Positions 5,480 through 63,754 of a stretch of 64,000 nt of DNA are shown piece by piece. Within the stretch, counting starts at the first letter, position 1, and every line of letters begins with the position of its first letter. The stretch spans positions 1 through 64,000 of the IMG/VR virus record IMGVR_UViG_3300002835_000147; one strand, written 5' to 3'. Made by a program: the position numbers and the translations under genes. The notes beneath the pieces are model-generated. The model ran no database searches, was not told the origin of the DNA, and saw only the letters and a list, made by a program, of their open reading frames with translations. The DNA comes from a virus.

Positions 5480-6142
5480 TTATTCTGAATCTATATCCCA
5501 AGAATTTTCTGTTTTTTGAATAGATCCAGGAGAAAAATAATTATAATTTTTTTCTATCATATTAAAATTATTTTTAATAAAAACTGATGTGCATGCTTCT
5601 TCAACTTCCATAAATCTTAATCCCCAAAGTGGAATTTCTAAATAACCGTTATCATATAAAAACTTACATGTATTTTTGTATTCGTTACTATTATCTAATA
5701 TTAAAATATTTGGAGATTCAGTCTTTAAAATATTCTTAGTTAATAAAAATCTATTAGATGCAGAATCAATAAAAACAATTGTTTTATCGTTAATTTCTAT
5801 ATCTGGAATTTTATTTTCTAAATCATATTTTTGAATAAACCTGTAGTCAACATTTTCTGATAGTGATGATTTAAAATTATTATAAAAATTTATATCAGTT
5901 TCAAACGAAACAACAGTTTCTACTTTGTCAGCAAAATAATTTGTTGAGTTTCCAGAACCAAATTCAATTAAATTAAAGTCACTAAAATCATAAGACTCAA
6001 ACCAATCTAGAAATGGTAAAGACAGCATTGGTTTATTTTGATATAAACCTTTTGCTCTTAAAATTGTCATTATTGATGCTATTTTAAAATAATCGTAATC
6101 TAAAATTATACCGCCAGTAGTATAGATTGGTTGTTCTTTCAT
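5480..6142 (-). CDS. Class I SAM-dependent methyltransferase-like protein
   Basis: The 220-aa protein has motif I LIEFGSGNST (about residues 58-67) and an acidic motif II (VSFETD), matching a Rossmann-like SAM-binding fold. VFIDSAS and NILILDNS follow in the core strands. The substrate cannot be read from sequence, and small-molecule, peptide or glycan substrates are possible. The start overlaps the stop of the upstream HTH gene (ATGA), so they form one translational unit. It is one of three unrelated-looking methyltransferase genes in the window. Confidence 0.65.
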   Translation of the reverse strand: MKEQPIYTTGGIILDYDYFKIASIMTILRAKGLYQNKPMLSLPFLDWFESYDFSDFNLIEFGSGNSTNYFADKVETVVSFETDINFYNNFKSSLSENVDYRFIQKYDLENKIPDIEINDKTIVFIDSASNRFLLTKNILKTESPNILILDNSNEYKNTCKFLYDNGYLEIPLWGLRFMEVEEACTSVFIKNNFNMIEKNYNYFSPGSIQKTENSWDIDSE

Positions 6143-28469: not shown

Positions 28470-29105
28470 TTAGACTTCTTCCAGTGTTACCGATATGTTC
28501 CAAAGATCATGATTTGTTGCACCACGTTTTACTACGGAATAATTAAAGTCTGCAAAATAAACTTGAATGATTTGATTATATCTGTTCAAACCATCATACT
28601 TGTATCCCTGTCCTTCTAAGTTTGTGTACTTGTCATAGGCAAGATACATCCAAAAAGGCCCTTGATGAGTTTCATACCAATCAAGAATTTCTACTCCACC
28701 AGCACCACCATCTGCTGTATATTCAGATGTAGATCCTTCGTTTGGTGCTATACCTGTTGTTTCATTAAAATTAGCCAATCCTGCATACCCTCTTGAAGGA
28801 ATCATGCTCCATGATACAGACATACTTAGTTTATCTGCAATATGATATGAACGCATACGACCATTAATTGTTCTTGTTCGTTGCTCAATTCTTTGAGTAT
28901 TGAACTGCATTTCTCCCCTATTATGATCAGACAGAATAATAAACTGATCCAATAGGTTGACATCTGTTTCTTCTGTATCTGCTCCTACCTCTATGCCATT
29001 AGGCACATATAAGCCATTAGAGAGGGTTCCAGGGTTGTTTGCCCATAATATACCCTGTGGTCTTGTATACCTGCGTCTACCTGTCAAATAAGCACTAGTA
29101 GCCAT
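28470..29105 (-). CDS. Distal tail (Dit-like) protein
   Basis: The 211-aa protein follows the tape measure and precedes the large tail protein, the classical Dit location. It is beta-rich, with motifs FYxADFNYSVV-like near the end and RSYHIADKLSMSVSWSMIP in the middle, fitting a Dit-like ring fold. Starts and stops abut or overlap both neighbours by a few bases. Assignment by position and size. Confidence 0.55.
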   Translation of the reverse strand: MATSAYLTGRRRYTRPQGILWANNPGTLSNGLYVPNGIEVGADTEETDVNLLDQFIILSDHNRGEMQFNTQRIEQRTRTINGRMRSYHIADKLSMSVSWSMIPSRGYAGLANFNETTGIAPNEGSTSEYTADGGAGGVEILDWYETHQGPFWMYLAYDKYTNLEGQGYKYDGLNRYNQIIQVYFADFNYSVVKRGATNHDLWNISVTLEEV

Positions 29106-32100
29106 TAGACTCTTTGCCCCCTAACTCTTTGTGAATCAACATTTTTAATTTCTCTCATTACTACTCTAGCAATATCATTTGCATTTACATTGTTTCCGTT
29201 AATGCTAAAGCCCAAATTATAATTATACACTGCCGTTGAGTTGTCACTTACAGATGTTGAAACATTATTAATTGGAGTTTGTGTGCCAAATCCACTACCT
29301 ATCATTGATGGATATTTTGACTCATTTAACATTGATAGCATTGGGCCAAATTCTGCACTTGCCCTCTTGTTCATTACGAACTCTCCAGGGGTTAGCATTG
29401 TTGGTACACTATCCGAACCTATACGTCCACCATTAGCAAGGTATTTAGGAACCATTCCACCCATACTCATTGGCTTAACCATACCGCCATACATTTTTCC
29501 TGGTATCTTGATTACTTGTCCTGGTCTAATTAAATTCGGATTTGAAATTTGTGGATTAGCCTTAATTACATCTGAAAGGCTAACTCCTGCTGCTTTTGCA
29601 ATTCCACTTAATGTATTGCCAGACTTTACTGTAACAGTTGATCCAGTTGATTTAGTTGCTGTTCCTGTTGCTGTGGCTGTGGCTGATCCTGCCTGACCAA
29701 AAGGAGTTCCACTGCCTGCTGCACCTGCTCCTGGAACACTGAATGATGAAGCAGCCTTCATTGATTCAAGAATGCTTGCCCAGGCACCTGCTGCCGTAGT
29801 AGAAGAAGTTGCAATTCCGTCTATATTAATTTTAAGACTATTTGACTCTTTATTAGATGCTTCTACATATTGTTGAATAAAGTTCCACTCTTGTCTTGTC
29901 ATTCCATTAATCTGTAAAGATTTTTGTTCTCGGTCAATTTGAAATGCAAGGTCTGATAAAATTTGTCGCTTTACATCTGCTTGTTTTTGTAAAGGCTCTA
30001 ATTGTAAAATTTCAATATTATAAATTTGATCACTTAGTGTTGTAATTTCTGTTTCAATTTGTTTTCTAGTTAATTTTTGACCATTAACAACTGCTGTAAT
30101 TGAAGATAATTCTCTTTGTTTTTGTACTTCTAAATTATTTGCTGCAGTTTCTAAACCAGTACCCATTCTGTTTAAAGATTCTTGTGCAGCCTCTGCTCTC
30201 ATTTCTTGTGCTGCTGCTGCTGCTGCAGAAATATCGCCTTGTGTTAATGCATTGGCAATACCCAATTGTTTCTGTTGTTGTGAAATCAAAAATGAATTAA
30301 TTGACTTTATTGATTCTAAGGCATCTCTTTGTTTATTTAAAGAATCAATCTTTTGATCATATGTTTCGGTGATTGCAGTTTCTTGTCTACCAATCAAATC
30401 AAGAGTACGATTATAAGATTTAATCTTTGAATTAATATCACCAATCGTATTTTGTATTTTATCAATTGATCTTTCATCTAGAGCAACGCTTAACTCCATT
30501 TCTTCTGGAGTCATTTTATTTATTGATTTAAATGCTGCTCTTGCTTTTCTTTCAATTTCAAGAAAACCAAAATCAAATCTTTCACTTAACTGTTCTGCTG
30601 CACCCTCTGCTAATTCATCTGCCTCAAATTGAACAGCCTTAAGTGCTGCTTCAAATTTTCTAGCCTCAGCAGTTGCTTTTTTTGTTTCCTCAGCCATTTT
30701 AGTAAATGCTTCAGGAGTTATTTTTCCAGTTGCAATTGCTGCTGCTGTTGCTGGGTCTTCAAGCATCTTTAAAGCGGTGGCTGCATCAACACCTTTTTTC
30801 TTAAGAGTATCTAATGCTTTAATTTGTATATTGTTTTCATTTTTTATTTTTTCTTGTGCTCTTAAATAAGTTCCAGCCTGAATTGTAGGGAATAATTGAT
30901 TAAGTGCTTTACCGTATTGATTTAAAACTAATTTTCCATTTTTAGCCTTATCCGTAATTTTATTAAAGAATTTTGCAGCATTTTCTGCATCTAGTCCTTC
31001 TGCAAATTGTAAAACACTTTCGTTAACTTTTAACCTTGATAATTTGTTAACAACACCATCAAAGTTATCTATTGTTTTACCTTTGCCAAGTTGCTTTAAT
31101 AACTCGTTCCAGCCACCCATAGCATTTACGGATTCTTTTCTAAATAATTTTAACTTTATTAATAAATCATCAAGGAATGTATCTCTATTTTTATTTTTGT
31201 TGTCAACTGGATCTGGGCCTGTTGGAACAGGGCCTGGCAATATGCCACCTTTTGCAATAATATCTGCAACAGATTTGCCAGCAGAAGAACCAAACCCTTT
31301 AAAGTTTGGATCATTAGAAACAACGTCAAAAGCCACTTTTATATTTTTATTTACAAAATCTTTTCCTTCAGATAAAATGCTCCACTGATCATAAAATGCC
31401 TTCCATTCTCCAGGCTTTTCTTCAGCAAGTTTTGCAACAACTTCTTTAGTTAATTGAGGATCTAACCCTTCAACTTGTTTTAAAGCATTTGTTGCAGTTG
31501 CTATTTGTTGTATTCCATTGGCCTTAAGGTCAAGAGTAATTCCATATGTAGGATTTATTTGATTTAAGAAAGCCAATGCTTCCATATCTGTTTTAAAGTC
31601 TTCTTCATTATTATTAATATATGACATCATAAGAGTTCTAGTTGTATCGTCAGCGCCTCCTGATGGCAATAATTCTGATATTAGTGAGGCATCTGCAAGA
31701 CCTTGCTTGTCAACCAAAATTTTAAATGCTGTTTCAAATCCTTTATTTCCTGCTGCAGTTGAAAGAATTTTTGTAATTACTGTTGGACTAACCTGACCAG
31801 ATGCAAGACCTACCTGCAATTCTGTTTTAAATTTTGAATCTTTTAATTTATTTAATGCTTCTATTGCCTGATCTTTAAAGACTGCCATAGGGCCTTCTTT
31901 ATACATTGCATCTGCTGCAGCCTTAATACCTTTAGTAAACCCATCTACGCCCAACTGATCTTTTTGTTTAATTAATAAGTTTAAAGCATTTGCATTATTG
32001 GCATTCAACTGATTAAGAGCATCTTTTCGTTGTCCTTGAATTGTATTTATTTCTTGTTCAGTTTTTGCAGATTTTAATTTTATGTCGTATTGTCTGTTTA

Positions 32101-35100
32101 ATGAATCTACAAGTCCTTGATTTTGTGCTACTTCTTGTAAGCCTAATTGAACTGCTGCTGATGTAAGTTTTGCAGATTGTTTTCTTTCTCCAAAATAATC
32201 AAAAAGTGTTGTAGGGTCAAATAAATTTTTAAATCTATCAAAAATACTTGTTGGAGCCATGTCTAATTTTGCACCAGCAAATGTATTTTTATTTTCTAGC
32301 ACTCCTTTTATTGCAGTTTGAAATGCTTGCGCCTGCTTGTCCATTGAGGATCTTTGTATTTCTAATGTTACCTGCAAAGGATCCGTAGTGAGGTTTTCTC
32401 CATTAGGACCAAGAAGTGATACAAGTTTGCCGCTAACAAGCGCTGGTATTTCATAACTTCCAAGTTCTTCTCCAAGGGCTGCAGCAATACTTCTTGCTTG
32501 GCTTGTTGTTACTGCACCTTGAGCAACTGCTACTGCTAAGTTATTGGCTAAATTTTGAGATATTTGCTTAATAGATTGACCATTTTTAGATTGAATTTCT
32601 ATATCTGCAAGTATTTGTTTTCCAAATTCACTACCCAATACATTTTGTCCAAATTGCCTTTGTCCCTCAACTGTTCCAGAAACGATATTCTTTCTTCTTC
32701 TAGCAGCCTCTTCACTTGCGCTAACAGTTCCAGATATTACAGATAGATCAACAATTTTCTTTGAAGTCATACTCATTGCATTAGAAAGATTAATTCCTTC
32801 TTGCCTTGCTTTTTCCATGTCTTTTGACATCTTATATAATGTTCCACCAACCAAAGCAATTGCTGCTACTGCTGCAACCCATGGATTTGCAAGCATTGGA
32901 AGTAATGCAACTATACCTTGTAATCCAAAAACAAATGGCATTATTGTTTGAGCCATTTCTCCTAATTTACCGCCAGCAAAAGATGCTGCAATTGTAAGTC
33001 CAGAAACTGCACCTATACCAAGACTTGCCTTTGAACTAAACTCTGATAACTTTTGCTTTGTTGTCTTTTGAGCCTCTGTAGACTCATTCATTGCATTTGT
33101 TAGTTTGCCTTCTGCTGCTATACGTCTTTTGGCTTCTTTTAAACTTATTTTTTCTACCGCTGCCAACAACTGTGCACGAGATAGTCTTGCTGATTGGGAT
33201 ACTTCTCCCATTGTTGTGCTTCCAGTTTTTGGATCAACTTGTGGTGCATTTGCAAACCCACGAAGTCTTCGGATTCTTTGAACTACAGTTTCGTTTGGAT
33301 TAAGTGTTGTTGTTCTATTGTCTGAAACATTTCTACTTGTTGTTTGAATGGATGCTGGTTTTCTTTCGGTGTTTTGTCCAGTTAGTGGGGTTAAATTACC
33401 CTTTGCGTCAACCTTGTACTCTCCTCTTGCTCTAACAGCAACAGTTTCTTTTTGAGGTTGTTTACCAATTAATCTATCAAAACGATCATTCATTGATTTA
33501 GTAATTTTAAGAACTTGTCTTCCTCCACCAAGGAACTCTCTTTGTGATTTAAACTTACCATCAATTAGTCCATTAATTACGTTATTCTTTGTAATTTTTC
33601 CACCTGTTATTTCAGGTCTGCGGTAAGCAACAATTTCACCTTTATCATTTAAACTGGTTGGAATTAATAGTTTTGGATCAATTGCTTTCAATTCATTTAA
33701 TTTTTTAACTAATATTGGATTTGAATTAGTTTTTTGTACAGCCTTAATAACATCATCAATTGATTTTAATTTATCTGTTTTAATGCTTGATCCACCAACA
33801 GCACTTGTAGATGCTGCACCAAGCAAGGTTCTTGCTGATCTAGATACAATTGGGTCTGCAGATTTTGCAAGAGCACCCATGATTCCAGACCTTTCATTAC
33901 CCATTCTAGAATAAATCATCTTGTCATTAATTAAAGCATTATCTGGTAAAGAATTTAAAGATTTTAATAAATTAGTTCTAATTTCTTTTGCAACTCTAAG
34001 CGCATCTGTATCTGGAATTCCCTGCTTAGAAAGACTTATTGTCATTGTTCTTAAAGAGTTATCATCAAGAATTGCTCGTCTATATTCTCCAGCAGTAACT
34101 GTTGAATTTTTTCTATTTAGTTGCCCATTCATTTCTTTAGGAATATCAAACCCAACAGCAGTGTATAGGTTTTCTCTTCCAAAACCAAGTTTTCTAAACT
34201 GCTCTGAAACCTTTGTTCCAGAAATCTGTTTATGATCTACAGCATGTCCAAATACTAGGTTTGATTTTGTTTGAGATTTTGCCCCTTGCATTCTTGCGAG
34301 AAGTGCTGCGTTTCTTGCAGCAAAGGCTTCGTTGGTTTCTGTAAATGCTGATTTGCCCAAAAGAAGACTATTTATTTGGCTTGGGTTAGTATTAAGAACT
34401 TGTGCTGAAGGCCCACTAAGATCCATCTTTGGTTGGAACTTTGGAGAGTTAGCAAATGGTTGTGCATCTCCAGTTCCAGTTCCAAATGCCTGAAGTTTAC
34501 CGCCAAGCAATGCTTCAATAATTGGCTGGACTTGTGGATTTTGTGCAATGTCTGTTGGAATTACCGCTTCTCCAGGCATAAGCACTGCAGGAACATTATC
34601 TTTGTTACCTCTTCCTGGTACAGATGCAGTTCCTCTTGCAAATTTCTTTGGTGCCCCGCCTCTGCCAGGCATCATCATTCCTGGATTTGTTCTTGCAAAG
34701 TTGGCTGCAGCGACTGTTGCATCAATATATGCTTGACGAAGTGCTCTTACAGCAGATGCCTCAATATTAAATTGTTGTGTGAGTCTATTATGTGCTTGGT
34801 TTAATGATGCTGCTACTGTTGCAGCCTCTAGTTGCTCTACCGATAAATAGTTTGTTTGTTCTGCAAGAATTTTGCTATTTCCACCAAGTTTTAAAAATCC
34901 TGTACGCATTATTGCAAATAGTTTTATTCCGTTTGCTACTGCGTTCATTAATAAACCAAAAGTCATTAATAATACTGGACCAATAATTCCAACCAGCGTT
35001 GTTGCAACTACAATAAACTTCTTTGTGCCATCTCCAAGATTATTAAACTTATCTAGCAAACCTGCAACTGATTGTGCAATTGGTGTTACTGCCTCTAAAA

Positions 35101-36643
35101 ATGTTTTGCCAACTGGTTCAAGTGTTAATCTAAGATCCTCAATTGCTTTTTTAAACTTAGTTCCAACTGCATCCTCTAAAACTCCAAGTTCTCTTTCAGA
35201 CATAATTGCAAGTTGTTCAACAGAATTTGTTGTTAATCCAAGAACTTTTGCAGCCTGTGTTCCGTCTTTTGTTACGTTTTGAAACAATGTTGATAAACGT
35301 GAGAACTGAAACTTACCAAATAACTGCTCAATTGCACGAGCACGATTAAGTGGGTCTAGAGTATCCAGCGCTCTTGAAAAGTCAATAACTGTACTCTTAA
35401 TATCACCCTGATTACCTTCAACAATTGCTTTGATATTAATTCCCATATCTGCAAGCATTTCAGATGCTTTTTTAGTTGGATTAATGAGTGATGCTAAACC
35501 AGACTTAAGTGCGTTAGCACCTTCTGATGCATTGATTCCGCCTTCTTTCATTGCTGTTAAAAAGAATGCTAAATCTTCAACATCTCCACCAAGTTGTTTT
35601 ACAACTGGACCTGCTTTAGGAATTGCAATAGTTAAATCTTCAATAGATACGACTGTTTGGTTTTCAACTGCGTTAAGGAAGTTAATCTTTTTTGCCAAAT
35701 CTTCTGCTGCTGTACCAAATGCGTTTGTAATAGATATAGTTGTTTCTAGAGCCTGTCCTTGCTCTACACCACCAAGAACTGCAAGTCTTGTTGCTTGGGC
35801 TACCTGCGCTGTAAGTTCTGCACCAGTCTTACCCATTGCTGCAGCATCTGCTGCCATCTTCATCGTATCTACAACTGCAATTCCATACTTAGTAAATGAT
35901 TCTGCAAGTTGTCTTACATTTTCAAGAGCCTCATTTGTTTGTTCTGTTGTTGTAAATATATCTCCATATACACGCTTAAACCTGATGGCTTGTGCTTCAA
36001 GATCCATAAAAGTTTTTCCAGCAACAGTTCCAAGATAGGCAAGAGGAATTGTAAAACCAACCATAAGTTGGCGACCTGCCCACTGTGTATTTTTACCAAA
36101 GTTTAAAAGATTTGTAGATCCTTGTTTTACTAACTGATTGAATAATGCTTGCTTTTGTGCTGCTAATGCAACCTGTGTTCCGTAGTCTTTCATATTTAGG
36201 CTAGTTGGAGTAACAGAGATAGCCTTCATTGCACCGCTTGCATCACGGCCTAACTTAATATATTGTGTTTGTAATCTTTTTACACGATCTTGTGCTACTT
36301 TGCCAATTGTGTCAAATTCTGATTTAAATAATCTTCCAAATGTTTTTGTAGATCCGCCAGCATAACGGAAATATTCCCGCATTGAAAGTTTGTTTTTTTC
36401 AAGAGCATTTGTGAAAGATTCTGTGGATGTTCTAACGACACCCATCTGTGCTGAGAATTTACCAGTAGCATTTATTGAGTTCAGCAGATTCTGCTGCATG
36501 TTTCTTTGTTGAGCAGCAGCAGAAGCACTACCCTTTGATACCGAAGTATGGAATAGTGCTAACTGTCGCTGTAAACTTTTAAGTTCCGCTAACGCCTGCG
36601 ACGTATCAATTTGTACGCCAATTTTGGCATTAACATCACTCAT
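29105..36643 (-). CDS. Tape measure protein with LysM domain
   Basis: The 2,512-aa protein is the longest in the window. The start (AKIGVQIDTSQALAELKSLQ) and helical coiled-coil rich body are typical of tape measures. At 0.15 nm per residue it predicts a tail near 375 nm. A PGEAVI-type motif (VPAVLMPGEAVIPTDI) near residue 670 and a second (VPTMLTPGEFVMNKR) near 2410 are conserved tape-measure features. Between them about residues 700-1100 hold an extra domain. A LysM peptidoglycan-binding segment (SGNTLSGIAKAAGVSLSDVI) lies near residues 2300-2350. TM-like segments occur around LVGIIGPVLLMTFGLL and LPMLANPWVAAVAAIALV. Confidence 0.93.
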   Translation of the reverse strand: MSDVNAKIGVQIDTSQALAELKSLQRQLALFHTSVSKGSASAAAQQRNMQQNLLNSINATGKFSAQMGVVRTSTESFTNALEKNKLSMREYFRYAGGSTKTFGRLFKSEFDTIGKVAQDRVKRLQTQYIKLGRDASGAMKAISVTPTSLNMKDYGTQVALAAQKQALFNQLVKQGSTNLLNFGKNTQWAGRQLMVGFTIPLAYLGTVAGKTFMDLEAQAIRFKRVYGDIFTTTEQTNEALENVRQLAESFTKYGIAVVDTMKMAADAAAMGKTGAELTAQVAQATRLAVLGGVEQGQALETTISITNAFGTAAEDLAKKINFLNAVENQTVVSIEDLTIAIPKAGPVVKQLGGDVEDLAFFLTAMKEGGINASEGANALKSGLASLINPTKKASEMLADMGINIKAIVEGNQGDIKSTVIDFSRALDTLDPLNRARAIEQLFGKFQFSRLSTLFQNVTKDGTQAAKVLGLTTNSVEQLAIMSERELGVLEDAVGTKFKKAIEDLRLTLEPVGKTFLEAVTPIAQSVAGLLDKFNNLGDGTKKFIVVATTLVGIIGPVLLMTFGLLMNAVANGIKLFAIMRTGFLKLGGNSKILAEQTNYLSVEQLEAATVAASLNQAHNRLTQQFNIEASAVRALRQAYIDATVAAANFARTNPGMMMPGRGGAPKKFARGTASVPGRGNKDNVPAVLMPGEAVIPTDIAQNPQVQPIIEALLGGKLQAFGTGTGDAQPFANSPKFQPKMDLSGPSAQVLNTNPSQINSLLLGKSAFTETNEAFAARNAALLARMQGAKSQTKSNLVFGHAVDHKQISGTKVSEQFRKLGFGRENLYTAVGFDIPKEMNGQLNRKNSTVTAGEYRRAILDDNSLRTMTISLSKQGIPDTDALRVAKEIRTNLLKSLNSLPDNALINDKMIYSRMGNERSGIMGALAKSADPIVSRSARTLLGAASTSAVGGSSIKTDKLKSIDDVIKAVQKTNSNPILVKKLNELKAIDPKLLIPTSLNDKGEIVAYRRPEITGGKITKNNVINGLIDGKFKSQREFLGGGRQVLKITKSMNDRFDRLIGKQPQKETVAVRARGEYKVDAKGNLTPLTGQNTERKPASIQTTSRNVSDNRTTTLNPNETVVQRIRRLRGFANAPQVDPKTGSTTMGEVSQSARLSRAQLLAAVEKISLKEAKRRIAAEGKLTNAMNESTEAQKTTKQKLSEFSSKASLGIGAVSGLTIAASFAGGKLGEMAQTIMPFVFGLQGIVALLPMLANPWVAAVAAIALVGGTLYKMSKDMEKARQEGINLSNAMSMTSKKIVDLSVISGTVSASEEAARRRKNIVSGTVEGQRQFGQNVLGSEFGKQILADIEIQSKNGQSIKQISQNLANNLAVAVAQGAVTTSQARSIAAALGEELGSYEIPALVSGKLVSLLGPNGENLTTDPLQVTLEIQRSSMDKQAQAFQTAIKGVLENKNTFAGAKLDMAPTSIFDRFKNLFDPTTLFDYFGERKQSAKLTSAAVQLGLQEVAQNQGLVDSLNRQYDIKLKSAKTEQEINTIQGQRKDALNQLNANNANALNLLIKQKDQLGVDGFTKGIKAAADAMYKEGPMAVFKDQAIEALNKLKDSKFKTELQVGLASGQVSPTVITKILSTAAGNKGFETAFKILVDKQGLADASLISELLPSGGADDTTRTLMMSYINNNEEDFKTDMEALAFLNQINPTYGITLDLKANGIQQIATATNALKQVEGLDPQLTKEVVAKLAEEKPGEWKAFYDQWSILSEGKDFVNKNIKVAFDVVSNDPNFKGFGSSAGKSVADIIAKGGILPGPVPTGPDPVDNKNKNRDTFLDDLLIKLKLFRKESVNAMGGWNELLKQLGKGKTIDNFDGVVNKLSRLKVNESVLQFAEGLDAENAAKFFNKITDKAKNGKLVLNQYGKALNQLFPTIQAGTYLRAQEKIKNENNIQIKALDTLKKKGVDAATALKMLEDPATAAAIATGKITPEAFTKMAEETKKATAEARKFEAALKAVQFEADELAEGAAEQLSERFDFGFLEIERKARAAFKSINKMTPEEMELSVALDERSIDKIQNTIGDINSKIKSYNRTLDLIGRQETAITETYDQKIDSLNKQRDALESIKSINSFLISQQQKQLGIANALTQGDISAAAAAAQEMRAEAAQESLNRMGTGLETAANNLEVQKQRELSSITAVVNGQKLTRKQIETEITTLSDQIYNIEILQLEPLQKQADVKRQILSDLAFQIDREQKSLQINGMTRQEWNFIQQYVEASNKESNSLKINIDGIATSSTTAAGAWASILESMKAASSFSVPGAGAAGSGTPFGQAGSATATATGTATKSTGSTVTVKSGNTLSGIAKAAGVSLSDVIKANPQISNPNLIRPGQVIKIPGKMYGGMVKPMSMGGMVPKYLANGGRIGSDSVPTMLTPGEFVMNKRASAEFGPMLSMLNESKYPSMIGSGFGTQTPINNVSTSVSDNSTAVYNYNLGFSINGNNVNANDIARVVMREIKNVDSQRVRGQRV

Positions 36644-36658
36644 TTGTCACCTCATTGT

Positions 36659-36991
36659 TTAATTGTTTGCAAGAACTGTGTTCAAGAGTGCATTTGCATC
36701 TTGAAGTTTTACCCCTGAAGCAGATTCAATAATCTTATAAACAGTTGGAAGATCAATATTCTCTTCTAACTTTTTAGCATCATCTGCAATTTCTGGCTTA
36801 TATTGCTTCATAGCAATTTGAACACAATCAATAAGGACAGTCGTTGACTTGTCATTATCTTCTGCCACCTCTGCTAGTTCTGAAAACTTCTTCATAAATG
36901 GACGAAGTAATGAGATTTTAAGCGGTCTTGCCTTAATCTTTGTACCGTCCAAAAGAACTAGTTCTACCTCTTCATACGTGCTTGTTGCCAT
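36659..36991 (-). CDS. Tail assembly chaperone, G-only paralogue
   Basis: The 110-aa helical protein starts MATSTYEEVELVLLDGTKIK and contains CVQIAMKQYKPEI, matching the first half of the 231-aa chaperone encoded upstream. It lies 15 bases before the tape measure, the normal site of chaperones, but has no T-like extension after its stop. It is preceded by AGGAGG and an extended -10 element. It is probably the short G-type partner of the longer fused protein. Confidence 0.75.
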   Translation of the reverse strand: MATSTYEEVELVLLDGTKIKARPLKISLLRPFMKKFSELAEVAEDNDKSTTVLIDCVQIAMKQYKPEIADDAKKLEENIDLPTVYKIIESASGVKLQDANALLNTVLANN

Positions 36992-37018
36992 TGATTTTTC
37001 CTCCTATAGGCTATGTTA

Positions 37019-37027
37019 ATTATATCA
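37019..37027 (-). promoter_or_regulatory. Extended -10 promoter before the short chaperone and tape measure
   Basis: The minus strand reads TGATATAAT, 28 bases before the ATG of the short chaperone, with AGGAGG in between. A 105-base gap lies upstream of it. Confidence 0.55.
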
Positions 37028-37096
37028 TGTAAGGGCCTTATTTTTACAAGTATTTTTAATGCCTTAAATGCCTAAAAAACTAAATATGGGAGGTAA

Positions 37097-37744
37097 TTAA
37101 ATAAAGGGGTCTATTTTTTCTAAAACAAAAAACCAGCCTAGGCAGTTTTCATAATTCTTGTTTAGTTCGTGCACTATTTCTTTTACATATTTTATATGAA
37201 ATAAGCCAGAGGATGGTAATTCTACTGCTGAGATGTTTATGGCATCTGGTGTGGTATATCTGTTATTTTTATTATTTAGATTACCAGAAATTAAAATTGC
37301 CTTTCCACCAGGCTTTAGCCTTGAGTACAAAATTTTAAAATAAGTATTTATTATATCTAAATTATTATGAAAACAACCCCTATCATATATAAGATCATAT
37401 TTTTTGTCTGGCAAATCAAAGTGTAAATCTCCCACAATAAATTCTACGTTATTTCTACCGACATTATTTTCCTTAGCAATATTTATTGCAACCTCAGATA
37501 CATCTATGGCAGTTACGCTTTTTGCTTTTTTTGATAAGAATAATGTATCATTTCCAGACCCACATCCAAGTTCAAGAACATCATATTCTTCAATATTATT
37601 TTGATTTACAAATTCTTCCAAATTTTTATCATAGGTATACGTTTCCCATGGCAATTCTTTTGTACTATTTTTACTAACATATGAATGGTTTCCAGCCCAA
37701 ACTGAATCCCAAAAGCCTTTTTTCATTTTTTTAGTTTTTTCCAT
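37097..37744 (-). CDS. Class I SAM-dependent methyltransferase inserted between tail chaperones
   Basis: The 215-aa protein has motif I VLELGCGSGNDTLFLSK (about residues 55-71), motif II VTAIDVSEVA, and YDLIYDRGCFHN with LKPGGKAILISG, the post-motifs of small methyltransferases related to thiopurine/tellurite types. Two Met codons (1 and 7) could be the start. It lies between two paralogous tail-assembly chaperones in an otherwise structural operon and is thus an accessory insertion. The substrate is unknown. Confidence 0.75.
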   Translation of the reverse strand: MEKTKKMKKGFWDSVWAGNHSYVSKNSTKELPWETYTYDKNLEEFVNQNNIEEYDVLELGCGSGNDTLFLSKKAKSVTAIDVSEVAINIAKENNVGRNNVEFIVGDLHFDLPDKKYDLIYDRGCFHNNLDIINTYFKILYSRLKPGGKAILISGNLNNKNNRYTTPDAINISAVELPSSGLFHIKYVKEIVHELNKNYENCLGWFFVLEKIDPFI

Positions 37745-37772
37745 TCTTATAGTTTATCACATACCTATTATT

Positions 37773-38468
37773 TTATTTTGTCAAATCTTCATACTCTAAT
37801 CCCATGCCAATACCAAACCCTGCTTTTTTAGCATTTTGTCCTTGGAGTGCCAAGATGTCTTTACTATCATTTGTTGCACCTTTGCTAAATACTCTAGCCT
37901 TCATATCTTCCCACTCCTTTTGGCCTCGTGACGATCCAGACTGTTTGTCTAAATCTACCCCTTGAATTGCAGCAAGAAATTTTTTTTCTTCGTAATCAAG
38001 TTCTCTACGACTAGAAAGTGTAGCCATTAACTCTGGCATAGATAAAGACTCTTCTAACTCCTTATAATCTTTCCAAATACCCAATAAAAATGCTTCAGCC
38101 TCAATTTTTGCTAAGTCTAAATCAGACCAGGTTGATCCACTCTCTGTTGCCTGAGTTTTAACAGTTTCCTCTGATCCCCTGTTTATTTTTATTCCTGCTG
38201 AAACATCTAAAATTGTATATATTGTGGGCATATCAAAACTATCTTCTATGTCATCTTTTTTTAACGCTATTCCTGGATAATATTGCTTCATAGCAATCCT
38301 AACACATTCCATTAAGCAATCTATTGCTTGGTCATCGTCCTCGGCCTTTTTTACATTTTCAAAAGCCTCCATAAACTCACGAAGATATTTTATTTTTAAT
38401 GGAATAATCTCTAGTTCTGTTCCATCAATAAGATTTATTACTTTATTTTGATAAACTGTTGTTGCCAT
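37773..38468 (-). CDS. Tail assembly chaperone, fused G-T form
   Basis: The 231-aa protein has an N-terminal half homologous to the 110-aa chaperone (LIDGTELEIIPLKIKYLREF; CVRIAMKQYYPGI) and a C-terminal half with WKDYKELEESLSMPELMATL and FLAAIQGVDL, the T-type segment. In lambda-like phages the GT product arises by frameshifting, while here one uninterrupted frame encodes it. It follows the major tail protein. It probably coats the tape measure during tail assembly. Confidence 0.8.
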   Translation of the reverse strand: MATTVYQNKVINLIDGTELEIIPLKIKYLREFMEAFENVKKAEDDDQAIDCLMECVRIAMKQYYPGIALKKDDIEDSFDMPTIYTILDVSAGIKINRGSEETVKTQATESGSTWSDLDLAKIEAEAFLLGIWKDYKELEESLSMPELMATLSSRRELDYEEKKFLAAIQGVDLDKQSGSSRGQKEWEDMKARVFSKGATNDSKDILALQGQNAKKAGFGIGMGLEYEDLTK

Positions 38469-38495
38469 GATTTATCTATTCTATCATAGGCAAAA

Positions 38496-38522
38496 GAAAA
38501 AACCCACCTCATAAGAGATGGG
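38496..38522 (-). terminator. Intrinsic terminator after the major tail protein gene
   Basis: The minus strand has CCCATCTC and GAGGTGGG pairing in an 8-bp stem with one G-U pair and a 4-base loop, then TTTTTT. It would limit read-through from the highly expressed tail gene into chaperones. Confidence 0.85.
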
Positions 38523-38546
38523 CTTTTGCTTTAATCTAAAATTAGA

Positions 38547-39179
38547 TTATGATTGACCAAATGTACGATCTACGATCTTACCGTATGATCCTGACGCATC
38601 TTCTGGAAGAAGACGGAATGAAACTTCAAACATTGACGCTTCGTCACGCTTTGCGGATACAGTTACGTTCTCAATTGATAGAGCACGATATGCTGTGTAA
38701 ACACGCTCAACAGAGTCAGAGTTGTCGCAATCTCCAGTTCCTGGTCCAACAGCAACGATTCCTCGTTCTACTGGACATTCTCCAAGTTCACCTGCAGATA
38801 GATTAAGTGTCTGACCTGTAGATGCTGCCTTGTTTCCTGTAAGTTGTGCATCAGAAAATGCTAATGCAAGAAGCAAGTTTTCTAGTGTTGCTTCAGCAAA
38901 AGCGGTAGCAAGATTAACCTGCATACCTTGCTTATATAGTTTTGCAACGTCAAGAATTTGGTCTACCTGGACTTCACCGAAGTCTGGTTGGAACTGCAAT
39001 TCTAGACCGTTCATGGTGTAACCTATGTTAGTGTAATCTGCTTCATCTGAAAGTGTATCTTTAAAAGACTCACTTGCGTCAAAAGCCTCCAGTGTACCTG
39101 GAGTTAGAGTTGTATCAGCAACGAAAAGTGCTGCTGCACCAACGATAATGTTGTTTGACGTACCACGGCTATATGGCAT
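38547..39179 (-). CDS. Major tail protein
   Basis: The 210-aa protein is beta-rich with no hydrophobic segment (GLELQFQPDFGEVQVDQILD; SVERVYTAYRALSIENVTVS). Size and location between neck genes and the tail assembly chaperones match the tail-tube monomer. A dedicated promoter-like element and a strong downstream terminator imply high-level, separately tuned expression, as expected for a protein needed in hundreds of copies. Confidence 0.8.
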   Translation of the reverse strand: MPYSRGTSNNIIVGAAALFVADTTLTPGTLEAFDASESFKDTLSDEADYTNIGYTMNGLELQFQPDFGEVQVDQILDVAKLYKQGMQVNLATAFAEATLENLLLALAFSDAQLTGNKAASTGQTLNLSAGELGECPVERGIVAVGPGTGDCDNSDSVERVYTAYRALSIENVTVSAKRDEASMFEVSFRLLPEDASGSYGKIVDRTFGQS

Positions 39180-43586: not shown

Positions 43587-44921
43587 TTAGTTAAATAGGT
43601 CGGTTGATGTGAGGAAACGACCGCCCCATAGGGATTTTTGAACCACTTGTGGTGATTCCTGTACGATCTCGCCTAGATCGCCAGACTTGCGGAAAGCGGT
43701 ATCTTGCTCTACAAGATCTACTCGCTTGCCAAACTCGTTAAAGTTATTCTTGATACCGTTAACATCTGATGTTACTGCATCAAGAGATTTTGTTACTGCT
43801 GTTACCTTCTCATTAAGAGATTTGATAGTTGCAGCAAGATCGCCAAAGGCATTAGTAAGAGAAGTATTAATTTCTGAAACTGCCTTGGCAACTTCTTCTT
43901 TAACATCTGCAATAGATTTTTCCACTACATTCTCTACTTCAACTGCTGCTTTTGCAGCAGAAGATTCTGCACCACCATCATCCGATTTAGCAACAGCAAG
44001 TTCTTCAACTACTGGTGCTTCTTCAGCGACTGCAGGAGTTTCTGCTGTTTCTGCAACAACCTCTGTTGTTACGTCTGCTGCTACTTCTGCTGGCTGTGCC
44101 TCTGGAGCAATCTCTGCATTTTCAACTGCAGTTTCTACAACTGCTTCTGTTGATTCTGTCATTTGATTTACCTCCTTAGTAATCTTAATTGTATTAATGC
44201 CTTTAGCACTATCAACTAAGAATTTTATCATTTCTGCATTATCTTTATCATTCTTTTCTATAAAACCAATATTTTGCATTTTGTTTCCAGTTACTGGACT
44301 TGTTACTGAGTCAGAATCTGAAACCATAACAATACCGTTTTCTGAATCCCAAAATACATTTTCAATTTCTGTTTTTGATAAGTATCCATCTACTACGTTT
44401 TGTCCATTTACCTTTTCAATAGATAAAATATTTGCAAATTGGTTTGCTGGATTATCTACAAGAGATAACTCATGTAGTTCATATGTTTTGATTACACGAA
44501 TTGTTTTATCAATTTTTTCATCATAAGCATCATCCCAAGTCTTTATGTTGCCACCAATTGAAAATCCAGTGTATGTTCCATCTAAAACTTTTTCCCAAGC
44601 ATCTTGTGCACCTTTAGAAACATACGCAGATACGTAAACTCCACTATAAAACTTTTTGTCATTTGGATCAAAATATTTATCTTCTTTAAAAGAAACAATC
44701 TTTCCTACTGCGCTGGGCTGATGCATTTCACGAAGATTGCCACGGAAGTTTTTAAAAGCCTCTACACTAGATTCTGTTGTAACTATGTCGCCTTGACGAT
44801 CAACATTATCAAGCGTAGCAAAGCCAGACACCATACGGCGTTCAACATCCACTTTTCCAATGGGCATTGAAAGGCGAACATTGTCACCTTTAGTTTCCCA
44901 ATGAGCCTTGTTTATTAACAT
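43587..44921 (-). CDS. Prohead maturation protease with C-terminal scaffold-like region
   Basis: The 444-aa protein has an N-terminal U35-type (HK97) protease domain with catalytic H67 (LREMHQP), S121 (TGFSIGG) and the ELSLVDNPAN block near residue 155. Residues 255-420 are Ala/Glu/Val-rich coiled coil, consistent with a built-in scaffold domain (delta-like). No ribosome-binding site precedes the ATG, and a -10 element lies only nine bases upstream, so translation may be leaderless. It precedes the capsid gene. Confidence 0.88.
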   Translation of the reverse strand: MLINKAHWETKGDNVRLSMPIGKVDVERRMVSGFATLDNVDRQGDIVTTESSVEAFKNFRGNLREMHQPSAVGKIVSFKEDKYFDPNDKKFYSGVYVSAYVSKGAQDAWEKVLDGTYTGFSIGGNIKTWDDAYDEKIDKTIRVIKTYELHELSLVDNPANQFANILSIEKVNGQNVVDGYLSKTEIENVFWDSENGIVMVSDSDSVTSPVTGNKMQNIGFIEKNDKDNAEMIKFLVDSAKGINTIKITKEVNQMTESTEAVVETAVENAEIAPEAQPAEVAADVTTEVVAETAETPAVAEEAPVVEELAVAKSDDGGAESSAAKAAVEVENVVEKSIADVKEEVAKAVSEINTSLTNAFGDLAATIKSLNEKVTAVTKSLDAVTSDVNGIKNNFNEFGKRVDLVEQDTAFRKSGDLGEIVQESPQVVQKSLWGGRFLTSTDLFN

Positions 44922-56778: not shown

Positions 56779-57225
56779 TTAGGCCTTTAACCCCATACGC
56801 ATGTAGCGCAAGGTTATCGGTGTAATTCCCCCTACTGGAACAACAGTTAGTGAAACTGTGTCTCCAGCCCTTGAAACAGAGATGGTGCCAATATTCCCAT
56901 CATTTTCAATTGTTGCATATTCGCTAACAGATACCCCTGATCCATCAACCAATATGTTCATTTCTGTAGAGTAGTACTTGTTTGCACCACCTGCTACATG
57001 CTTAATAGAGATCATATATTTCATTGATCGCCATTCACTTGCGGAAAAGTTATCAAAAATTGTTGAGTTTTCAATACCATTAATGGTTAACTCATTGTTA
57101 CCGTCTGAACCAAGATCTGTAGATCTAGCAGAAGCACTATCAATTAAATCTATATAGTCTTCTTGTGTTGGGCGGTCGCCAGTCTGAAACTTAGTCTTAA
57201 CATTTGAAATTGATACCTTTGCCAT
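56779..57225 (-). CDS. Small fibre/virion protein sharing C-terminal module
   Basis: The 148-aa protein has an N-terminal helix (SNVKTKFQTGDRPTQEDYID) and a C-terminal module (SMKYMISIKHVAGGANKYYS; MNILVDGSGVSVSEYA) homologous in pattern to the C-terminus of the neighbouring 653-aa fibre. A -10 element ends only six bases before the ATG, with no ribosome-binding site, suggesting a leaderless message. Likely a virion or fibre accessory. Confidence 0.6.
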   Translation of the reverse strand: MAKVSISNVKTKFQTGDRPTQEDYIDLIDSASARSTDLGSDGNNELTINGIENSTIFDNFSASEWRSMKYMISIKHVAGGANKYYSTEMNILVDGSGVSVSEYATIENDGNIGTISVSRAGDTVSLTVVPVGGITPITLRYMRMGLKA

Positions 57226-57247: not shown

Positions 57248-57469
57248 TTAAAGAATATAGTTATTAATTCCAATAATTTGAAGACCAATTCCAGGCACAC
57301 CTGCATATGCTGGACCAATTCCAATAGTAGTAAATTTAACTCTAAAAGGCAAAACCTCATTAATTTTTACTGCTCTTGCCTTGTAAATTATTTCAGATAT
57401 TGGGTAGCCAACAGAGTTTATCTTTTTTGCTTTATGGCTATCGGTATCAATTATGATAGCGGATGCCAT
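57248..57469 (-). CDS. Small hypothetical virion-region protein
   Basis: The 73-aa protein is mainly beta-like (IIYKARAVKINEVLPFRVKF), with a Gly/Ile-rich end (AYAGVPGIGLQIIGINNYIL). TAATG overlaps the preceding BppU-like gene. I do not recognise it; a small fibre or baseplate part is likely from neighbours. Confidence 0.5.
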   Translation of the reverse strand: MASAIIIDTDSHKAKKINSVGYPISEIIYKARAVKINEVLPFRVKFTTIGIGPAYAGVPGIGLQIIGINNYIL

Positions 57470-57879
57470 TAGGACTCACTATTTGTTACGTCTTCAATTA
57501 CTTTCATAGTGCCTCTGGCTACCGTCCAAACACGACTTTCATCACTTAGTTCAATATCAAAAATATCGCCAGTTTCTAACAACACAGATTCATTTGCTGT
57601 AAGAGAAACTGTAAACTCTCCAGCATCATCTATTTCTGTTGGAACTGGTTCAAGTTCAACGATTAATTCTGCATCATCTGTAAAATCACCAGGCTTTGTA
57701 TTTGGACGTTTAATTTCCATTGCAATAGTCCAATCAGCAATAACTAGTGGATCTTTATTATCATCTGTAACATAAACACGAAATGAGGCAGTATCGCCAC
57801 GAACAACTGTCCACAATACATTTGGTGGTGTCAAACCAACTGAATAAGAATCTGAACCTTGATTTCTAAATGTAGCCAT
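57469..57879 (-). CDS. BppU-like baseplate/fibre protein
   Basis: The 136-aa beta protein includes VVRGDTASFRVYVTDDNKDP, resembling the N-terminal domain of BppU-type receptor-binding baseplate proteins, and ends with DIFDIELSDESRVWTVARGT. A second protein of the same type is encoded at 62660-63010, so a duplicated baseplate module is present. It starts in the divergent promoter region and is the first minus-strand gene left of the lysozyme. Confidence 0.6.
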   Translation of the reverse strand: MATFRNQGSDSYSVGLTPPNVLWTVVRGDTASFRVYVTDDNKDPLVIADWTIAMEIKRPNTKPGDFTDDAELIVELEPVPTEIDDAGEFTVSLTANESVLLETGDIFDIELSDESRVWTVARGTMKVIEDVTNSES

Positions 57880-63025: not shown

Positions 63026-63035
63026 ATTATACCAT
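63026..63035 (-). promoter_or_regulatory. Extended -10 promoter before the second BppU-like gene
   Basis: The minus strand reads ATGGTATAAT within the 24-base gap, partly overlapping the stop codon of the collagen-like gene. Confidence 0.6.
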
Positions 63036-63754
63036 TATGATACTGCTATATATATGCCTTTTAAAATAAAAGATCCCTCATTGTCTGTTCTTATTTGAGG
63101 GATACCACCATAGTTTTTTATTTTGTCACTATTTATAAAAAAGGTTTGAGAATAGGATAGGTCATATTCATATTGATATTTTAGTAGTCCCACATATCCT
63201 ATTGGAGATAAATCTTCATCCTTTAAGAGAGTTCTTATCCAAACCTCTGTATTGTTTGAGTATGTTTCTAAAGAAAAGTCATATCTGATTTCTAGTTTTG
63301 ATCCTACTTTGAGTGTTTTAAGATTAATATTTTTTGCCACCTGATTTATTAAAGAAACTGATTTGTTTGGAAGATAGGTTTCAACAGTTTGACCTTCATT
63401 TATATTTAGAAAAAAAGAAACCCACCCATCCTCTCCTCTTTCTGGACCAACCCTATATACACCTGTATTATTTCCAGCATAGTATGCCCATCCAGGATAC
63501 TGTCCAGATGGGCTATCGTATCCCTCTGCACCTTTTCCTGGATCACCTTTTTCTCCCTTTGGCCCTTGAGGTCCCTGTGGACCTTTTTCACCCCTATCAC
63601 CTTTTTGTCCTTGTGGTCCCTCTTTACCTTGTGGACCCGTTTCGCCCTTTTCGCCTTGAATTCCAGGAACAGCAATATATTCAACAGACCTTGTCTGTTC
63701 TACAGTTTCGTTGTATTTTTTTTTCTTACTAGGAAAATCCATATTTGTAGCCAT
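63035..63754 (-). CDS. Collagen-like repeat virion protein
   Basis: The 239-aa protein has 15 G-x-y triplets (residues 31-75, GIQGEKGETGPQGKEG...), which would form a trimeric collagen-like helix. A globular C-terminal domain (KNINLKTLKVGSKLEIRYDF) follows. Such proteins form phage fibres or head decorations. GGGAGG precedes the ATG. It is the first complete long gene at the right edge. Confidence 0.75.
   Translation of the reverse strand: MATNMDFPSKKKKYNETVEQTRSVEYIAVPGIQGEKGETGPQGKEGPQGQKGDRGEKGPQGPQGPKGEKGDPGKGAEGYDSPSGQYPGWAYYAGNNTGVYRVGPERGEDGWVSFFLNINEGQTVETYLPNKSVSLINQVAKNINLKTLKVGSKLEIRYDFSLETYSNNTEVWIRTLLKDEDLSPIGYVGLLKYQYEYDLSYSQTFFINSDKIKNYGGIPQIRTDNEGSFILKGIYIAVS
63530..63664 (-). 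repeat. Collagen-like G-x-y repeat coding region
   Basis: Fifteen consecutive Gly-X-Y codons of the 239-aa gene. The DNA repeat consists mostly of GGx CCx/AAR triplets on the minus strand. Length variation through slippage is likely. Confidence 0.7.

Follow-up and report, generated by a model that had tools for sequence, protein, structure and literature searches.

Most long-tailed phages make a short and a long tail-assembly protein from one gene by ribosomal frameshifting, and few recoding events in tailed phages are as conserved as the frameshift at the tail chaperone locus. In phage lambda, the short product G coats the tape-measure protein and the T part of the long product GT recruits the tail tube protein, with a G:GT ratio of about 30:1 that is set by the slip rate (PMC5009743). 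Two-gene chaperones are not unprecedented, as a short gene together with a fused long gene has been reported for some T4-like phages (Vladimirov, Gautam and Davidson 2022, as described in PMC10885494). Here we describe a locus in which G and GT very probably come from two genes, in place of the single -1-frameshifted gene of its relatives. The locus was analyzed in a 64,000-nucleotide stretch of viral DNA (positions 1 to 64,000 of IMG/VR record IMGVR_UViG_3300002835_000147), hereafter the window.

All genes of the locus lie on the minus strand, with open reading frames exactly at the positions given in a first-pass annotation of the window, and in the direction of transcription their order is major tail protein, GT, methyltransferase, G and tape measure. 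The major tail (tube) protein gene (210 aa; 38547..39179; phrog_2175, 4.6e-34), whose Streptomyces phage homologues are annotated as major tail protein, lies 5' of the chaperone genes. It is followed by GT (231 aa; 37773..38468), which encodes an N-domain and a T-domain in one frame, by the methyltransferase gene (215 aa; 37097..37744) and by G (110 aa; 36659..36991), which encodes an N-domain and a short tail; directly 3' of G lies the tape-measure gene (2512 aa; 29105..36643; PhageMin_Tail, 1.1e-26). Close to the C-terminal end of the tape-measure protein is a LysM domain (residues 2338-2381, 6e-14), and elsewhere on the minus strand of the window a collagen-repeat protein is encoded at 63035..63754 (PF01391, 3.3e-8). 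The Pfam matches of ten other window ORFs gave nothing useful as to the host.

Pairwise alignment identifies G and GT as paralogues, with a highly significant similarity that is beyond chance (43% identity and 71% similarity over residues 1-96, E = 9e-27), as the first-pass annotation had proposed; a lack of such similarity was one of the two outcomes that it had named as speaking against its reading. The motif quoted there was found as CVQIAMKQYKPEI in G and CVRIAMKQYYPGI in GT, and the segment SLSMPELMATL is confined to GT as claimed. That annotation had also described the shared region as the N-terminal half of both proteins; a shared N-terminal region is present, but G is essentially the entire N-domain with a short tail rather than a protein half of which is shared. 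Both proteins match PHROG 10504 with the N-domain (2.5e-22 and 4.9e-22), and GT alone matches PHROG 10474 (residues 131-222, 3.4e-14); the existence of two separate families is a hint that G and T are distinct ORFs in relatives. Comparison with known chaperone families gave a weak match to PHROG 1932 (0.0051). One profile comparison was discarded as evidence because its two alignments have members in common.

The pair has the characteristics of tail assembly chaperones in that it comprises short and long isoforms with a common N-terminal domain, has its genes between those of the major tail protein and the tape measure, and has homologues that carry the annotation tail assembly chaperone. Structural matches of the models to known chaperones are moderate, as is the confidence of the GT and G models themselves (mean pLDDT about 71): among viral predicted structures, the G model matched a tail assembly chaperone at a Foldseek E of 2.9e-6, and the GT model matched tail assembly chaperones, with an E of 8.7e-5, and N15 GT weakly at 0.026. 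No relatives of G or GT were found in the PDB, either by sequence or by fold. The locus resembles lambda G/GT in its common N-domain, its place in the gene order and the likeness of the GT model to N15 GT, but unlike in lambda GT is fused in frame without a frameshift, and G has a gene and a control region of its own.

We classified 294 loci with domain profiles, most of which came from four scans of viral contigs with profiles or proteins; some loci are the same contig at different flanks, and later counts are therefore given on distinct sequences. An in-frame fused N-T gene followed by a separate N copy before the tape measure was present in 275 of 275 fused loci with enough downstream sequence, an association that rests on one evolutionary change however many loci are counted. 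The GT reading frame is single in all 275, without the slip heptamer and -1 T frame of the frameshift type. Conversely, a second G was absent from all 14 loci in which T is read in another frame (-1) than G, and a search with a profile including free G found no second, diverged G in these frameshift-type phages. The comparison with related phages that the first-pass annotation had suggested as a check thus separates -1 relatives without a second G from fused relatives with one. In each of the five candidates for a fused GT without G, the contig breaks off inside GT or shortly after it. The sole irregular G among the 275 (L046, about 5753-6081) is broken by a one-base frame change, possibly a sequencing error. 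Taken as a group, the fused-GT phages are a large, widespread clade of uncultivated phages, present in hundreds of metagenome contigs. A single genome-collection scan for prophage or host copies returned one locus, L162 (CAINGU010000031.1), which is of the frameshift type and lies on a phage-like 110-kb contig binned in a cyanobacterium MAG, a bin assignment that may be wrong.

A tblastn search for relatives yielded 127 Streptomyces phage records, and in the four Streptomyces phages examined (Circinus, Patelgo, Targaryen and Braelyn; Stanwilliamsviridae) the T ORF is in the -1 frame, overlaps G by about 55-60 nt and is accompanied by no second G; L162 and four similar viral contigs have the same layout. 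CCCAAAT or CCCAAAC (CCCAAAY) stands in slip register at a homologous LND-P-N site in 12 of the 14 frameshift-type loci, the two without it being Samistivirus loci (L084 and L086; Targaryen and Braelyn). In the G/T overlap of these two, T is again in the -1 frame, there is no XXXYYYZ heptamer, and the homologous site reads CCCGGAA. A -1 overlap, with GGGAAAA, is also present in the outgroup Rhodococcus phages Dorin and Trina, and Dorin, like Patelgo, has a joined-gene annotation for the long product. That the relatives frameshift is a prediction based on their sequences and annotations. When the two parts are joined at the slip site, the Streptomyces products can be aligned with the window GT over their whole length (41% identity for Circinus). 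These and the L162-type phages are homologous to it over the whole of GT and share its gene order; they differ in having one gene with T in the -1 frame, CCCAAAY in most, a Shine-Dalgarno start and no second G. In Circinus (gene 35, L083 3390-3659) and several other Streptomyces phages, the annotation lists the T part as a hypothetical protein in its own right, although it most likely represents the portion of GT that is reached by frameshifting.

If GT itself still frameshifted or terminated early to give its own short product, the second G would be only an extra dose, and frameshifting within the longer gene had been named in the first-pass annotation as grounds for abandoning its proposal. 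Some GT genes do contain scattered heptamers and A/T runs near the junction, including CCCAAAT in L123 and L124. We nevertheless consider this explanation improbable, because no slip heptamer recurs at one position in more than 3 of the 180 distinct GT genes, leaving GT with no conserved slip site, and because CCCAAAY is absent from the junction of all fused GT genes except those of L123 and L124. Nor did a search for a known RNA element between the two genes give any Rfam match. The CCCAAAT of L123 and L124, in slip register at nt 284 of the GT gene, could be due to chance or be a relic of the ancestral site.

The direction of the change was read from trees. In a tree of N-domains, those of frameshift G, free G and GT are each set apart from the rest by a branch (99/97, 99/96 and 93/88), a partition that implies a single duplication older than the sampled fused clade. 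In a tree of tail tube proteins with the Rhodococcus phages as root, the fused clade is recovered at 100/99 and joins the L162-type frameshifters at 98/93, a join that involves long branches, and the Streptomyces frameshifters fall outside fused and L162-type phages together. Since the fused clade is nested inside frameshifting lineages, frameshifting is likely the ancestral state and was likely replaced once. Together, the layouts and trees show one duplication of an ancestral frameshift-type gene at the base of the clade, which gave an in-frame GT without a slip site and a copy with the G domain only, both of them retained. The earlier proposal that duplication plus fusion replaced the frameshift is borne out by the layouts of the relatives and by the rooted tree.

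Both copies are maintained by purifying selection, given median dN/dS values of 0.19 for G and 0.13 for GT in moderately diverged pairs. They have also diverged considerably: the N-domains of G and GT are strongly separated, with a stem branch of 1.19 for G and an identity of only about 43%, as might be seen if the free G had taken another role (e.g., tape-measure holdase or regulator) and left GT alone as the chaperone. We regard such a change of role as unlikely, although less so than residual frameshifting, since G keeps its domain, its place directly 5' of the tape measure and an ancestral-like tail, and is never missing beside a fused GT; moreover, lambda requires both isoforms in a balanced ratio, according to work cited in PMC5009743. 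The tail of the free G, which is similar to D-x-x-(L/I)(L/I), resembles the 0-frame tail beyond the slip site (permutation p 0.0055; the similarity is short, relatedness is not fully handled, and the comparison with GT involves only the 7 linkers caught by the anchor). A descent of G from the unshifted product would lead one to expect such a tail.

We found that the two genes differ in their predicted control regions. Between the tail tube gene and GT in the window lies an intrinsic-terminator-like hairpin with a 13-pair stem and a T tract (38498..38527, minus strand), followed by an extended -10 element, TGA-TAGAAT (38478..38486), which ends 9 nt 5' of the GT start codon and is predicted to serve as a GT promoter giving a leaderless or near-leaderless mRNA; GT has no Shine-Dalgarno site (pairing energy of +0.2 kcal/mol). 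Upstream of G, a consensus extended -10 element, TGA-TATAAT (37019..37027), forms the predicted promoter and is followed by a Shine-Dalgarno site, AGGAGG (37000..37005), with a duplex energy of -10.2 kcal/mol. Across relatives, G is predicted to have the stronger Shine-Dalgarno pairing in 183 of 183 distinct GT/G pairs (means of -9.9 for G and -1.5 kcal/mol for GT), and TANNNT occurs 4-9 nt 5' of the start in 182 of 183 distinct relatives for GT versus 29 of 183 for G. The element TGnTATAAT is present in the G gap of 172 of 177 distinct loci, a score reached by 0.3% of shuffled gaps. A terminator-like hairpin lies 5' of GT in 178 of 179 distinct loci, as it does 5' of the chaperone gene in most Stanwilliamsviridae and L162-type phages, and none was found in 166 distinct GT-G gaps.

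As a control within loci, the -10 elements of GT, G, tail tube and tape-measure genes were compared in 153 loci. TGnTANNNT at 4-9 nt was found for 144 of 153 GT genes and for 0 of 153 each of the G, tail tube and tape-measure genes, and TGnTATAAT at 14-36 nt was found for 149 G, 4 tail tube, 0 GT and 0 tape-measure genes. These comparisons show two conserved sets of predicted signals: for G, a consensus extended -10 element, a leader and a strong Shine-Dalgarno site; for GT, an upstream terminator together with an extended -10 element 4-9 nt 5' of the ATG and no Shine-Dalgarno site. One GT gene is an exception (L140, 5001), with a Shine-Dalgarno-like GGGGG and a TTG start. By eye, the leaders and promoter of the L162-type frameshift genes look like those of free G, a likeness which suggests that G retained the ancestral control region and that GT lost its leader.

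In bacteria, a TANNNT whose first T lies about 12 nt 5' of the start is a mark of leaderless genes (PMC3160421), and such genes are common in Actinobacteria (PMC3898074). GT resembles these genes, with its -10 element at about the same distance and no Shine-Dalgarno site, and its mRNA is accordingly predicted to be leaderless or near-leaderless; unlike them, GT is a phage gene paired with a Shine-Dalgarno-led paralogue. In the window, the genes at 43587..44921, 56779..57225 and 57469..57879 (minus strand) also have no Shine-Dalgarno site and a TGn-TATAAT 6-9 nt 5' of the start; these genes, starting at 44921, 57225 and 57879, are further leaderless candidates, of which the window holds few.

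The gene between the two copies encodes a SAM-dependent methyltransferase with a generic family profile (Methyltransf_25, 4.7e-17). The first-pass annotation had placed a methyltransferase between the copies; its position is correct, but the gene does not belong to the arrangement: it is a late insertion found in only two lineages. It occurs only in near-identical phages and, in the same slot, in L049 and L299, and nearly all relatives are without it and have a GT-G gap of about 20-70 nt. It was inserted 5' of the intact G promoter together with its own -10 element, TGA-TAAACT (37751..37759, minus strand), 6 nt 5' of its start, which would be a promoter of its own judging from the sequence. 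A function in the arrangement, e.g., in modifying a tail protein or tuning the ratio, could be argued from its location exactly between the copies and from the gene of 90% identity in the same slot of the second lineage, L049, but given its absence from almost all relatives, its own predicted promoter, the intact G promoter and the generic profile, we find such a function highly improbable, and its restriction to near-identical phages and L049/L299 rules it out as a component of the system. We regard the methyltransferase as cargo that was inserted late and is incidental to the chaperone arrangement. The methyltransferases of L049 (5739-6359) and the window (37097..37744) are 90% identical and the GT proteins of the same two phages about 81%, so the gene probably moved between them.

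With the methyltransferase set aside, we propose that the two chaperone genes would be expressed from nested transcripts. GT would be translated from an mRNA without a leader; the transcript starting at the GT promoter would span GT and G and could also give G, with no terminator between the two, and additional G-only transcripts would start at the stronger-looking G promoter. The sum of GT-G and extra G-only transcripts would put G in excess of GT, and the G:GT ratio would be set by promoter strength and initiation mode rather than by slip frequency. As in lambda, the tape measure would be coated by G, and recruitment of the tail tube protein would fall to the T part of GT. The separate conserved control regions are consistent with the earlier suggestion of a different way of setting the G:GT ratio. 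Leaderless mRNAs of M. tuberculosis have no overall deficit in protein per mRNA (PMC3898074), so the missing Shine-Dalgarno site need not mean low GT, and since Actinobacteria can translate leaderless mRNAs efficiently, sequence does not give the absolute ratio.

The described arrangement of T4-like phages is similar in having a separate short gene and a fused long gene without a frameshift. T4-like phages are contractile-tailed, whereas the window clade has visible frameshift-type relatives that give a direction of change, and its two genes differ from each other in their predicted promoters and initiation modes. An origin separate from the T4-like two-gene chaperones is likely because the nearest relatives are of the frameshift type. 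In the open-licence literature, we found no report of such a locus with visible frameshift-type relatives, nor of paired leaderless and Shine-Dalgarno control.

The above analyses describe a clade that abandoned the frameshift and whose close frameshift-type relatives indicate which way the change went. Whether frameshifting is needed for the ratio alone or for the coupling of the two products is now testable. For annotation, a second 'hypothetical' gene 5' of the tape measure may be the main chaperone. We judge it an even chance that control of the isoform ratio moved from frameshifting to gene duplication, with a leaderless GT and a Shine-Dalgarno-led G expressed from a nested, stronger promoter. 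If true, the ratio would respond to promoter use and to the capacity of the host for leaderless translation, unlike a fixed slip rate.
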